Assembly (NCBI GenBank): GCA_015493405.1
Contig: WGDF01000035.1
Location: forward strand, 1 to 11,462
Direction of reading: 5' to 3'
Length of the DNA stretch: 11,462 bases
Source of the DNA: Flavobacteriaceae bacterium
Lineage (GTDB): Bacteria; Bacteroidota; Bacteroidia; Flavobacteriales; Flavobacteriaceae
The first letter of the stretch is position 1. The number at the start of each line of letters is the position of its first letter. Below the pieces are notes generated by a model. The model was given only the letters and a program-made list of their open reading frames with translations, did no database searches and was not told the origin of the DNA. Made by a program: the position numbers and the translations under genes. Shown here one piece after another: positions 2,314-7,793 of this stretch.

Positions 2314-3369
2314 ATGAAATTCAAATTTTTACTATTAATTTTAATTATTTGGCAGACAGGAACCAGCCAAATTGGGGTAGGAACCGGTTTTGTAGGTAAA
2401 CAAAAAAGATTAGGAAAAAAACGCCAAGCTAATGTAAAACATAAATTAGAAGATTTTAAAAAAACGAAAACCATTTTTATCCTATCCAATGTTTATGATA
2501 AGCCGACTTATGATAGTATGTTAAAAGCCAGTTGGCATGTTACACCTTTTGAGGTTGTAAAACAAAAAGATTTCAGTTTTAATGATTATGCCGGCAACCA
2601 ATATTCTTATGCCTTTTTAGATTGGGAACAAGTAGAATTCATGAAAAATAATGAACCTACCGGTAATGCAATAGTGCGTGCATATATAGAAATATTTATG
2701 TATGATTTTGATAATATCAAAAAACAGTTATCAAAATTATCAAAGAAAAGGAGAGCCAAAAAATTAGTAGATATTTTTGAGCAAAATAAAAAGCTCGTTG
2801 CCCGTTTTTTCTTATATCCAACCGGAGATTTCGCTAGTTTTATGGTAAAAAATGATCCAAGTAAAAATAATGATGTAAATAAAAAACTATACAATGAAGA
2901 CCTACTTTATAATTATAAATCCGGTTTTTTAAAAAATTATTTTCAAAAAGTCAATAACTTAATTCAAAAAGACCAAGTTTATTGGATGTATGTAAAAAAT
3001 CCGGAATATTTACCGGAACTCAAAAATTTAAAGAAAAAAACTTTATATGTTCCTGATTTTGTTGCAAGAAAATTTAATGGGCTGGAAAGAGAAAAAAAAC
3101 CGAGCAAAGCCTTTTTGGATAAAATATTTAAAAACTATGATTATAAATATCAAATGATTAGTTCCGATGAATTGAATAAAAAAATTATGAACAATGAGCC
3201 CATTTATTACTTAATGTATATAAGGGCAAGTTCAGAGCGTTTTGTTTCGGTTGTTAATGCGCGAACCGGAGAAATTATTTATAGAGCATATCATAAGTTT
3301 GGACATGAATTAAAATCAAAACATATCAGTAAATTGAATAAAGCCATTCAAAAAGCGGCAAAAAATTAA
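2314..3369 (+). CDS. Secreted lysine-rich protein of unknown function
   Basis: I do not recognise a characterised family. The 351-residue product begins with a clear signal peptide: MKFK, then a hydrophobic stretch LLLILIIW, with probable cleavage near GTSQ (residues 16-19). There is no lipobox cysteine, so a periplasmic or surface location is expected. The mature part is rich in Lys, Asn, Phe and Tyr and has no other obvious membrane segment. Segments that look structured include TIFILSNVYDKPTYDSML (about 54-71), a KKRRAKK basic patch, KKKTLYVPDFVARKFNG, and a C-terminal stretch with PIYYLMYIRAS and FVSVVNARTGEIIYRAYH, which reads as paired beta strands. It lies 39 bp after the acetyltransferase and ends before the rpsU promoter. 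The codons are more A-rich than in the metabolic genes beside it. No catalytic motif is evident. Confidence 0.85.
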   Translation: MKFKFLLLILIIWQTGTSQIGVGTGFVGKQKRLGKKRQANVKHKLEDFKKTKTIFILSNVYDKPTYDSMLKASWHVTPFEVVKQKDFSFNDYAGNQYSYAFLDWEQVEFMKNNEPTGNAIVRAYIEIFMYDFDNIKKQLSKLSKKRRAKKLVDIFEQNKKLVARFFLYPTGDFASFMVKNDPSKNNDVNKKLYNEDLLYNYKSGFLKNYFQKVNNLIQKDQVYWMYVKNPEYLPELKNLKKKTLYVPDFVARKFNGLEREKKPSKAFLDKIFKNYDYKYQMISSDELNKKIMNNEPIYYLMYIRASSERFVSVVNARTGEIIYRAYHKFGHELKSKHISKLNKAIQKAAKN

Positions 3370-3379
3370 CCGGCAAAAC

Positions 3380-3407
3380 ATGTTTTTCAAAAAAATGTGT
3401 ATCTTTG
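3380..3407 (+). promoter_or_regulatory. Probable Bacteroidota-type promoter of rpsU
   Basis: TATCTTTG at 3400-3407 is a perfect match to the Bacteroidota -7 element TAnnTTTG. Upstream, ATGTTTTTC at 3380-3388 is an imperfect -33 region (ATG where TTG is expected). The predicted start of transcription is near 3414, giving a leader of about 38 nt before the rpsU ATG. The -33 region overlaps a small palindrome, AAAACATGTTTT, at 3375-3386. Confidence 0.65.
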
Positions 3408-3438
3408 CCACTCATAATTAAGTATTAATCAATTAAAA

Positions 3439-3444
3439 GAGGTG
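3439..3444 (+). promoter_or_regulatory. Strong Shine-Dalgarno sequence of rpsU, probable autoregulatory site
   Basis: GAGGTG, preceded by AAAA, lies 7 nt before the rpsU ATG, an optimal SD spacing. The six bases pair perfectly with the CACCUC core of a canonical 16S rRNA 3' end. None of the other start sites in the window has a comparable sequence. Work on Flavobacterium johnsoniae ribosomes reported that bS21, bS18 and bS6 sequester the anti-SD, and that the bS21 gene is the exceptional one with a strong SD. Ribosomes lacking bS21 would then preferentially translate rpsU. The site here fits that model; the regulation itself is inferred. Confidence 0.85.
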
Positions 3445-3451
3445 TAAAACT

Positions 3452-3649
3452 ATGTTGATCATACCCGTAAAAGAAGGAGAGTCTATTGACAGAGCGTTGA
3501 AACGTTTCAAAAGAAAATTTGACCAAACTAAAATGATGCGTCAAATTAGAGATCGTAAACAATTTACCAAGCCATCTGTCAAACGCAGACAACAAGTCCT
3601 TAAAGCGCAGTACATCCAACATCTTCACGATTTGGAAGATCAATACTAA
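3452..3649 (+). CDS. rpsU: 30S ribosomal protein bS21
   Basis: A 65-residue basic protein of the small-subunit platform near the 3' end of 16S rRNA. The N-terminal VKEGESIDRALKRFKRKF and the following arginine-rich helices are typical of bS21. The ATG at 3452 is chosen because it gives the family N-terminus and follows a strong SD. The C-terminal region has a tyrosine at residue 54 (AQY). As I recall, Tyr54 of the F. johnsoniae protein helps hold the anti-SD of 16S rRNA in a blocked state, so the residue is consistent with that function here. The gene has its own promoter and terminator and is thus probably monocistronic, with some readthrough possible into the recombinase gene. Confidence 0.97.
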   Translation: MLIIPVKEGESIDRALKRFKRKFDQTKMMRQIRDRKQFTKPSVKRRQQVLKAQYIQHLHDLEDQY

Positions 3650-3674
3650 ATGAAAATTTAGTGCTTAAAAAATT

Positions 3675-3702
3675 AAGACTGTCCTTAAAGGCAGTCTTTT
3701 TT
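3675..3702 (+). terminator. Rho-independent terminator after rpsU
   Basis: AAGACTG (3675-3681) pairs perfectly with CAGTCTT (3692-3698). The ten-base interior can add a short CCT/AGG stem after one bulged T. The right arm runs into six T residues ending at 3702. The hairpin lies 25 bp after the rpsU stop and should separate it from the recombinase gene. Confidence 0.85.
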
Positions 3703-3744
3703 AATTTATAAACCGGTTCTTTGTTATTTCTCTTGAGAATGTTT

Positions 3745-3760
3745 AACTTCGTAAGAAGTT
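3745..3760 (+). promoter_or_regulatory. GUAA-tetraloop hairpin just before the recombinase start codon
   Basis: AACTTC (3745-3750) and GAAGTT (3755-3760) form a perfect 6-bp stem closed by GTAA, a GNRA-type tetraloop. It ends 8 nt before the ATG at 3769, within the likely ribosome footprint. It could influence initiation of the recombinase gene. A chance inverted repeat in AT-rich DNA cannot be excluded. Confidence 0.4.
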
Positions 3761-3768
3761 TCAGGCTT

Positions 3769-4659
3769 ATGTATATCAATCAATTTTTACAATATCTTCA
3801 AAAAGAAAAAAACTATTCGGCTTATACTATTAAAGCTTACCATAAAGATTTGGAAGTGTTTAAGCAGTTTTTAAAAGATAATCACATTGATTTGGTATCA
3901 GCCACTAGCAAGGATGTGCGTTTGTGGATAGCTCATCTGTCAGAGCGAAATTTATCTGAAAAAACCATCAATCGAAAAATAGCAACTTTAAAGAGTTTTT
4001 ATAAATTTTTACTCAAGACGGACACCATACAAGCCAGTCCAATGGTGCAATTAAAAAGTATGAAAGTCAGGCGACAGGTGCCGGTACCTTTCTCACAAAA
4101 TGAGATGCGTAATTTATTAGATAAAAATTTGTTTTCCAATGATTTTGAAGGACGTAGAGACTATGCCATTATTGCACTTTTATACAGCACCGGTATACGA
4201 CAAGGGGAATTAATCGCCATAAAACTTTCGGCTATTGACTTTCATAAAAAAGAGTTAAAAGTACTCGGTAAACGTAATAAAGAACGTCTGATTCCGTTAT
4301 TAGATCATACGATAGAAGCGGTGCAATCTTATATCGAAATCAAAAATAAATATTTCGCCGGTTCATCGGATATTGATGATTATTTATGGCTGACTAAAAA
4401 AGGAAAAAAAATATATGAAGTACTTGTATACCGCGTTATAAATTCGTATCTTAGTAAAGTCAGTGTGAAACACAAAAAAAGTCCGCATATGTTACGACAT
4501 ACTTTTGCCACACATTTGCTCAATAATGGCGCAGACCTTAATTCTATTAAGGAGTTGTTAGGTCATAGTAGTTTGGCGGCGACTCAAGTTTATACCCATA
4601 GCAGTATACAAGAACTAAAAAATATTTATAAAAAAGCTCATCCTAGGAGCCGAAAATGA
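3769..4659 (+). CDS. xerC: Tyrosine recombinase, XerC/XerD type
   Basis: A site-specific recombinase expected to resolve chromosome dimers at dif. From the ATG at 3769 it has 296 residues, the usual Xer size; earlier in-frame starts (TTG 3721, ATG 3739) would add 16 or 10 residues not typical of the family and run through the hairpin. The N-terminal SAM-like DNA-binding domain spans about 1-90 (FLQYLQKEKNYSAYTIKAYH). The catalytic domain has all six active residues: Arg144 (TGIRQGEL), Lys168 (LGKRNKE), His240 and Arg243 (HMLRHTFATH), His266 (LLGHSS) and nucleophile Tyr275 (VYTH). These keep the spacing of E. coli XerD (148, 172, 244, 247, 270, 279). Whether it is functionally XerC or XerD cannot be decided from this alone. 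It is followed 26 bp later by hpf and is probably co-transcribed with it. There are no flanking repeats or cargo suggesting an integrase of a mobile element. Confidence 0.93.
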   Translation: MYINQFLQYLQKEKNYSAYTIKAYHKDLEVFKQFLKDNHIDLVSATSKDVRLWIAHLSERNLSEKTINRKIATLKSFYKFLLKTDTIQASPMVQLKSMKVRRQVPVPFSQNEMRNLLDKNLFSNDFEGRRDYAIIALLYSTGIRQGELIAIKLSAIDFHKKELKVLGKRNKERLIPLLDHTIEAVQSYIEIKNKYFAGSSDIDDYLWLTKKGKKIYEVLVYRVINSYLSKVSVKHKKSPHMLRHTFATHLLNNGADLNSIKELLGHSSLAATQVYTHSSIQELKNIYKKAHPRSRK

Positions 4660-4685
4660 AGTATTAATTTAAAAAACGAAGATCT

Positions 4686-4979
4686 ATGAAAGCAATTTAC
4701 CAAGCAACCAATTTTGATGCCGATCAAAAACTAATTGACTTTATCCAAAAAAAATTAGACAGATTAGACAATTTTTTCGATCGCATCATAGAAGCTGAAG
4801 TTTTCTTGAAATTGAATAACACAGGCGGAAAAAATAAAACGGTAGAAATTAAAATCAAAGTCCCCGGTAATGACATTTACGTTTCTAGAGATGCGGAAAG
4901 TTTTGAAAAGGCAATGGATTTGTCTTATGATGTGCTGAAAAGACAATTAAAAAAACAAAAAGAGAAACTAAAAAATTAA
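4686..4979 (+). CDS. hpf: Short ribosome hibernation promoting factor (HPF/RaiA family)
   Basis: A 97-residue protein of the short HPF/YfiA class, which binds the decoding region of the 30S subunit and blocks tRNA and mRNA sites in resting cells. The beta-alpha-beta-beta-beta-alpha order is visible. An N-terminal strand MKAIYQATNF is followed by helix LIDFIQKKLDRLDNFFDR (16-33). Strands then lie near 36-45, 53-60 (VEIKIKVP) and 63-67 (DIYVS), and a long C-terminal lysine-rich helix spans 70-97 (AMDLSYDVLKRQLKKQ). It lacks the C-terminal dimerisation domain of long HPF, so it is not by itself the dimer-forming type. It sits 26 bp after the Xer-type gene and is followed by a terminator. No SD is present. 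Confidence 0.93.
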   Translation: MKAIYQATNFDADQKLIDFIQKKLDRLDNFFDRIIEAEVFLKLNNTGGKNKTVEIKIKVPGNDIYVSRDAESFEKAMDLSYDVLKRQLKKQKEKLKN

Positions 4980-7244: not shown

Positions 7245-7793
7245 ATGAGTGAACAAGTTAAAAAATGGTATGTCATTAAAGTCGTTAGTGGCAAGGAAGC
7301 CAAAATACAAAAGCTCATGGAGAACGAAATCCAACGTAATGGCTTACAAGATTATGTTGGGGAGATTTTGGTGCCTACCGAAAAAGTAGTGCAAATTAGA
7401 AACGGAAAACGTATTCAAAAAGATAAAACACTTTTTCCCGGTTATATTTATATGGAAGCAAACCTTTCTGGTGAACTGCCTCATGTGATTAAATCCATAC
7501 CGGGTGTAATGGGATACCTCAGTGGGGTTAAAGGAGGTGATCCGATGCCATTGAGCAAAAAAGAAGTCAATAGAATCTTAGGAAAAATTGATGAAATGGC
7601 AATGAATGCCGATCAAATTATCATTCCTTATAATGTAGGGGATGCCGTTACGGTAACGGATGGACCTTTTAAAGGTTTTGAAGGTGTGATTGAAGAAGTC
7701 AACAAAGATCGTAAAAAAGTAATTGTTATGGTTAAATTCTTTGGAAGAAAAACACCATTGGAATTGGGTTATTTTGAAGTAAAAAAAATATAA
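7245..7793 (+). CDS. nusG: Transcription termination/antitermination protein NusG
   Basis: Binds the RNA polymerase clamp, tunes pausing and links transcription to Rho or the ribosome. The 182-residue protein has an N-terminal NGN domain (about 6-112: KKWYVIKVVSGKEAKIQKLM, LFPGYIYM at 63-70, IPGVMGYLS at 85-93) and a C-terminal KOW domain (about 129-165: YNVGDAVTVTDGPFKGFEG). The length is standard, without the extra inserted domain of some Bacteroidota and Thermotoga homologues, so this is the housekeeping copy rather than a specialised UpxY-type factor. It starts 5 bp after secE. Confidence 0.97.
   Translation: MSEQVKKWYVIKVVSGKEAKIQKLMENEIQRNGLQDYVGEILVPTEKVVQIRNGKRIQKDKTLFPGYIYMEANLSGELPHVIKSIPGVMGYLSGVKGGDPMPLSKKEVNRILGKIDEMAMNADQIIIPYNVGDAVTVTDGPFKGFEGVIEEVNKDRKKVIVMVKFFGRKTPLELGYFEVKKI

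Follow-up and report, generated by a model that had tools for sequence, protein, structure and literature searches.

An AGAGG-type Shine-Dalgarno sequence before rpsU in a Flavobacteriaceae genus and its probable match to a CCUCU 16S rRNA tail

The stretch of DNA analyzed here (11,462 nt; hereafter the window) is an entire contig (WGDF01000035.1) of the Flavobacteriaceae assembly GCA_015493405.1, which has 2,065,389 bases in 395 contigs and is 91% complete. The rpsU gene (3452..3649, + strand) encodes the ribosomal protein bS21 (65 aa; PF01165 and TIGR00030 matches) and is the single match across the whole assembly. Residues 1-60 of its product align to the Flavobacterium johnsoniae bS21 of PDB 7jil. 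Residue 54 is a tyrosine, as an earlier note on this DNA had stated, and Tyr54 is shared by all 11 genus members (the window included) in which rpsU was located, out of 13 genomes of the genus. Located 3' of rpsU are an XerC-like gene and an HPF/YfiA gene, both identified by profile matches (the XerC model scores below its cut-off), followed by tRNAs and then by genes that we take to be tuf, secE, nusG, rplK, rplA, rplJ, rplL, and rpoB. The cluster of rpsU, xerC, and the gene for the ribosome hibernation factor HPF/YfiA (window 3452-4979) was also found in six of the eight stretches from the sister group described below (the G171 stretch ends at a contig edge and that of G175 holds rpsU only) and on 12 of the 14 family loci used for a three-protein tree. 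Upstream of rpsU, a 351-aa ORF (2314-3366) has an N-terminus that resembles a signal peptide by eye, and matched nothing in Pfam or NCBIfam at E 0.001.

The -7 promoter element of Bacteroidota has the form TAnnTTTG. In the window, TATCTTTG (3400..3407, + strand) is presumably a match to this element, and TAT(A/C)TTTG occurs at a comparable position in the rpsU leaders of many relatives. With this candidate element, rpsU would be transcribed from a promoter of its own and have a leader about 40 nt long. A sigma-70 scan, the model of which does not include the Bacteroidota -7 type, gave no promoter at 3400..3407. Downstream, one terminator-like hairpin of 9 pairs followed by a T-run was found (3675..3698, + strand; shuffles mean 0.2, sd 0.6), and given this hairpin, rpsU may be monocistronic. 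A leader hairpin acting as regulator was rejected, as the predicted fold of the 79 nt in question does not surpass that of shuffled sequences (z 0.95).

The Shine-Dalgarno (SD) sequence of rpsU, AAAAGAGGTGT (3435..3445, + strand), contains GAGGTG at 3439-3444 with a gap of 7 nt to the ATG at 3452, in agreement with the position given in the earlier note. GAGGTG occurs at 3439 and 7534 on the + strand and once on the other strand. When an ATG is required 4-10 nt after it, two occurrences remain in the window, compared with a shuffle mean of 0.23 (6/200 shuffles reach 2), and the second of these, at 7534, falls within nusG. The motif AGAGGTGT alone is not rare (present in 22/200 shuffles), so the case for an SD rests on position and conservation. 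In a gapless alignment from the ATG, AAAAGAGGTGT is invariant in all 11 genus leaders, which read AAAAGAGGTGTAAAA(C/T)T and then ATG; a chance SD was rejected on the strength of this invariance. The genome G152 has in addition a partial second copy of rpsU with an identical leader.

With the 16S tail of the family, the rpsU leader pairs at -11.4 kcal/mol (RNAduplex), compared with +1.8 to -3.0 at 13 other starts in the window (the first ORF, which starts outside the window, was left unscored), and rpsU is thus the lone strong SD here, as had been claimed. Our SD survey covered the window and 20 further contigs (21 contigs; 141,550 of 2,065,389 bases, or 6.9% of the assembly) and comprised 102 mechanical ORFs of at least 100 aa, to which rpsU was admitted by exception; 100 of these were scorable. 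Within this 6.9% sample, rpsU was the only ORF to reach -8 kcal/mol or better, and allowing starts at later in-frame ATGs did not change this. This bears out, for the sample, the expectation that rpsU is an SD outlier, and the same count (1/100 sampled ORFs) rejects the idea that SDs are common in the organism. The mean pairing of the 100 ORFs was weaker in the SD region (-0.58) than in a mock region further upstream (-1.47, with one ORF down to -10.9), so SDs in the sampled genes are, if anything, avoided, which matches the SD avoidance in Flavobacteriales described in the available text of PMC9976891.

The available text of that study, which concerns F. johnsoniae (McNutt et al., 2023; PMC9976891), reports that bS21, bS18, and bS6 hide the anti-SD, that Tyr54 stacks on A1534, and that bS21 synthesis is autoregulated via an extended SD of rpsU. 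When bS21 was lost, rpsU and a reporter with a strong SD were translated more; a response was seen with an AGGAGGU reporter and not with a weak AGGA. The hallmark given there is an rpsU pairing below -13 kcal/mol with a helix of 9-13 bp, the energies being computed with free_scan rather than RNAduplex. The earlier note had named the hiding of the anti-SD, the Tyr54 contact, and the SD as a feedback element at the bS21 gene, all of which are found in this source, and its basic reading restates published biology. By analogy with F. johnsoniae, bS21 (with bS18 and bS6) would keep the 16S 3' tail from mRNA in complete ribosomes, and with the tail withheld, ordinary genes would start without an SD; in ribosomes lacking bS21, the free tail would pair with the extended rpsU SD and more bS21 would be made. 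The fit of the window to this scheme, which the earlier note had proposed, is good for the gene, Tyr54, the spacing, and the uniqueness of the SD in the sample. It falls short in the pairing itself, which with the canonical CCUCC tail comprises 7 bp at -11.4 kcal/mol, short of the published -13 and of 9-13 bp.

This shortfall is unusual for the family. A sample of 149 family genomes gave an rpsU match in 144 (142 after removal of two of the window's genus), and 134 of these 142 leaders were scored (128 and 6 more). In 127/134, the leader has GG(A/G)GG and pairs at -16.3 to -21.2 kcal/mol; in the other seven, the SD is weak or absent. The rpsU SD in the window is therefore strong only in a relative sense, since 127 of the 134 family leaders pair better. 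Among the remaining eight, GGAGG is present in G003, which is truncated at a contig end, the SD is absent in G035, and six encode a divergent type of bS21 and show no evident SD. For 16S rRNA, 66/149 family genomes had a match and 46 tails were read (30 loci, G035, G055, and 14 more), 45 of which are ACACCTCCTTTCT (CCTCC). GG(A/G)GG stands before rpsU in each of the 45 family genomes for which both a canonical tail and the leader were read. The tail of the SD-less G035 is AATATATCTTTTCT, in which the anti-SD is unrecognizable.

Several side observations concern departures from this family pattern. Among the 128 family leaders, Tyr54 is missing in 3 of the 7 that have a weak or lost SD, compared with 1 of the 121 strong-SD cases (Fisher p 4e-4, uncorrected for kinship), which suggests that the SD and this pocket residue may decay jointly. 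The leaders involved are L108, L116, and L175 (G095, G081, and G065), together with L013, L174, L186, L194, and L193, and their genomes are small (1.3-1.9 Mb). The leaders L013 (G052; GAAAGAAGGTT) and L186 (G136; AAAGAAAGAGGGTT) would pair better with a C1538U tail, and these two genomes are possible further anti-SD variants; a search for their 16S 3' ends found none. Nine viral-classed bS21 genes from IMG/VR (L270-L278), with starts set at the nearest in-frame ATG, have leaders that scarcely pair with the canonical tail (0.3 to -5.2). Phage bS21 may thereby escape the SD-based feedback of the host.

The base that faces C1539 in the canonical pairing is the A preceding GAGG in the rpsU SD, and a single change of the tail, C1539U (CCUCC to CCUCU), would extend the helix of AAAAGAGGTGT to 11 bp at -15.2 kcal/mol. 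In terms of the 16S 3' end, the canonical tail is ACACCTCCTTTCT and the altered tail considered for the window's genus is ACACCTCTTT. The earlier note did not mention this misspelling of the SD relative to the canonical tail. The published hallmark would be reached if the tail is now CCUCU, which the following comparisons favor.

We scored every leader against the 13-nt canonical tail and against each of the 39 variants that differ from it at one base. The unrestricted scan was rejected as a test, as a wrong change beat the true canonical tail in 30/30 known genomes with gains of 0.8-4.0. When the scan was restricted to the five anti-SD core bases with a gain threshold of 0.5, none of these 30 known canonical-tail genomes reached it. 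Among 12 further scanned genomes with tails read later, the only false gain was in G023 (GGGGG; gain 3.0, tail canonical), giving no gain in 41/42 known canonical-tail genomes. In the core-limited scan, C1539U was the best change for all 11 genus leaders (gain 3.8-4.0 kcal/mol) and for both AGAGG-bearing leaders of the sister group (G171 and G174), and it was picked in the three genomes of Membranihabitans, where it is true.

The kinship of the window's genus was examined with a tree of RplK, RplA, RplJ, RplL, and RpoB from 21 genomes (G101 without the first two proteins), in which G170 is sister to the genus (UFBoot 100) and lies outside 15 other family members (support 96). The first eight listed relatives of G170 (G171-G178) were searched for rpsU, which matched in seven of them, the exception being G173. 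In a tree of bS21, XerC, and HPF, these seven group with G170 (100) and are sister to six genus members (100), with G175 placed by bS21 alone; G162 and Membranihabitans, whose loci hold rpsU only, were omitted, and the rooting on a family member makes this tree uninformative for deeper placement. The 16S tail of G170 is AATACCTCTTTTTT (CCUCU), and its rpsU has no matching SD. The rpsU leaders of G171 and G174 carry AAAAAGAGGTG (AGAGG), that of G174 pairing at -13.0 already with the canonical tail. The other six of the eight sister-group leaders lack the AGAGG SD, and their pairing with the tails used for scoring ranges from 0 to -8.4. In the sister group, the CCUCU tail and the AGAGG SD were thus seen in separate genomes and never in one. 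Within its group, G170 is the first to branch off (support 78 for the remaining members), and AGAGG thus occurs on both sides of the CCUCU-bearing genome.

We scanned a genome collection (84,980 species, one genome each) for CCTCT tails and obtained 20 stretches, of which 14 were judged by reading to be 16S ends and six to be other matches. Eleven of the records were searched for rpsU and nine matched, including G160 without a 16S tail, which left eight usable genomes; the search found no rpsU in G163 and G166. Three of these eight CCUCU genomes have a matching rpsU SD, all of them Membranihabitans, and five do not (G162, G165, G167, G168, and G170; the rpsU start codons of G167 and G168 are uncertain). 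In the distantly related Membranihabitans, the CCTCT tail is accompanied by AAAGAGGT before rpsU in 3/3 genomes, with a pairing to the own tail of just -11.4 to -11.5; these tails came from a pattern that demands CCTCT, to which CCTCC 16S copies would be invisible. It is the only genus in which the tail and the SD of the CCUCU/AGAGG pair were found in the same genome.

The most serious alternative, which we consider unlikely, is that the tail of the window's genus remains CCUCC and that drift has reduced the pairing of the rpsU SD to 7 bp, a helix sufficient for a looser bS21 feedback. No 16S match was found in the window's own assembly with Rfam RF00177, and no 16S 3' end was found in 13 genus assemblies with two DNA patterns, which leaves room for such a drift. 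Likewise, -11.4 is still the strongest pairing among the 100 ORFs, and the AGGAGGU motif of the reporter that responded to bS21 loss (PMC9976891, available text) scores -13.6 in our pairing program in an A-rich context. However, the mismatching A and the AAA preceding it are invariant in 11/11 species, which is hardly expected of drift; GG(A/G)GG is kept in 45/45 canonical-tail family genomes with a read leader; and the sole tail seen in the sister group is CCUCU. The altered-tail pattern gave no match in IMG/VR, and among 198 genomes related to G170, taken whether or not they hold a 16S end, it matched G170 alone.

A second alternative, in which the SD before rpsU is merely vestigial or simply enhances translation and plays no part in feedback, is rather improbable. 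The six sister-group leaders without AGAGG fit this view, as their bS21 retains Tyr54 where the sequence was read, and for the window's organism feedback is a prediction from sequence. The invariance of the SD and of Tyr54 (11/11) in the genus speaks against it, as does the autoregulation published for F. johnsoniae (PMC9976891, available text). Metagenome-assembled genomes often misplace rRNA contigs. A binning error in the 16S of G170, which shares just 81.4-84.5% identity with the family 16S sequences used for comparison, with AGAGG conserved for another cause, for instance as a signal in transcription or for RNA binding, is very improbable given that its 105-kb contig resembles five other G170 contigs in composition (correlation 0.699, compared with 0.683 among those five) and that the G170 16S falls just outside the family's 16S, in agreement with the protein tree (the 16S tree has no printed support values and left out the Membranihabitans and Amoebophilaceae pieces, which were too short).

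Taken together, we favor, with a probability of about three in four, a bS21 feedback on rpsU in which the tail changed from CCUCC to CCUCU and the SD from GGAGG to AGAGG. The feedback element itself appears to be present and ordinary in kind, and it is the spelling that is unusual. The C1539U change is most likely present in the window's own genus, and ancestrally at least in the sister genus; the rpsU SD would have changed alongside the tail and kept a helix of about 11 bp. With a shade more caution, we consider it likely that the ancestor of the window's genus and the sister group had a CCUCU tail compensated by AGAGG at rpsU alone, a covariation separate from those of Chryseobacterium (UCUCA) and Membranihabitans (CCUCU with AAAGAGG). 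The separate origin relative to Membranihabitans is inferred from their distance. The weakest points are that G170, which provides the only tail of the clade, is itself SD-less, that 5/8 CCUCU genomes (G170 among them) lack a matching SD, and that the pair occurs in the same genome only in Membranihabitans.

Compared with the F. johnsoniae system as described in the available text, the window shares bS21 with Tyr54 and an SD that, among the sampled genes, precedes rpsU alone, the others starting without one. Its rpsU may likewise be monocistronic, and regulation of rpsU by bS21 is inferred by this analogy. The two differ in the SD core, which is AGAGG in the window and GGAGG in F. johnsoniae, and in the 7-bp helix with a canonical tail, which would be either weak or rescued by a changed tail. 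Chryseobacterium and its relatives have a UCUCA anti-SD with a matching rpsU SD (Jha et al., 2021, as cited in the parts of PMC9976891 and PMC8710568 available), and the window's genus would probably represent a new compensated pair of this kind. The core change is a different one, C1539U alone, and so are the lineages, namely, the window's genus together with the sister group (as the comparison suggests) and Membranihabitans (as seen). The accessible part of PMC6107228 names Chryseobacterium among those that lack CCUCCU and reports no variant anti-SD that is fully matched by a variant genome-wide SD. For CCUCU, an archaeal case is given in PMC10783764, and the term occurs once in PMC9844084, in the portions available. 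The literature searched, in the parts accessible, contained no CCUCU/rpsU pair in Bacteroidota; an earlier report in Jha et al. (2021) or in supplementary tables is possible. The autoregulation by bS21 is itself established knowledge.

In most bacteria, the great number of mRNAs that use the anti-SD keeps it nearly fixed. If our reading is true, an SD system reduced to one gene would free this near-universal element to drift as long as that gene follows, and a failure to follow would end in the loss of either the rpsU SD or the anti-SD itself. Repeated changes of the tail that are matched at rpsU would be natural evidence for the use of the rpsU SD and for selection on it, and such evidence would reach uncultured lineages where experiments are hard. 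Furthermore, CCUCU and AGAGG would offer ready-made specificity pairs for tests in F. johnsoniae.
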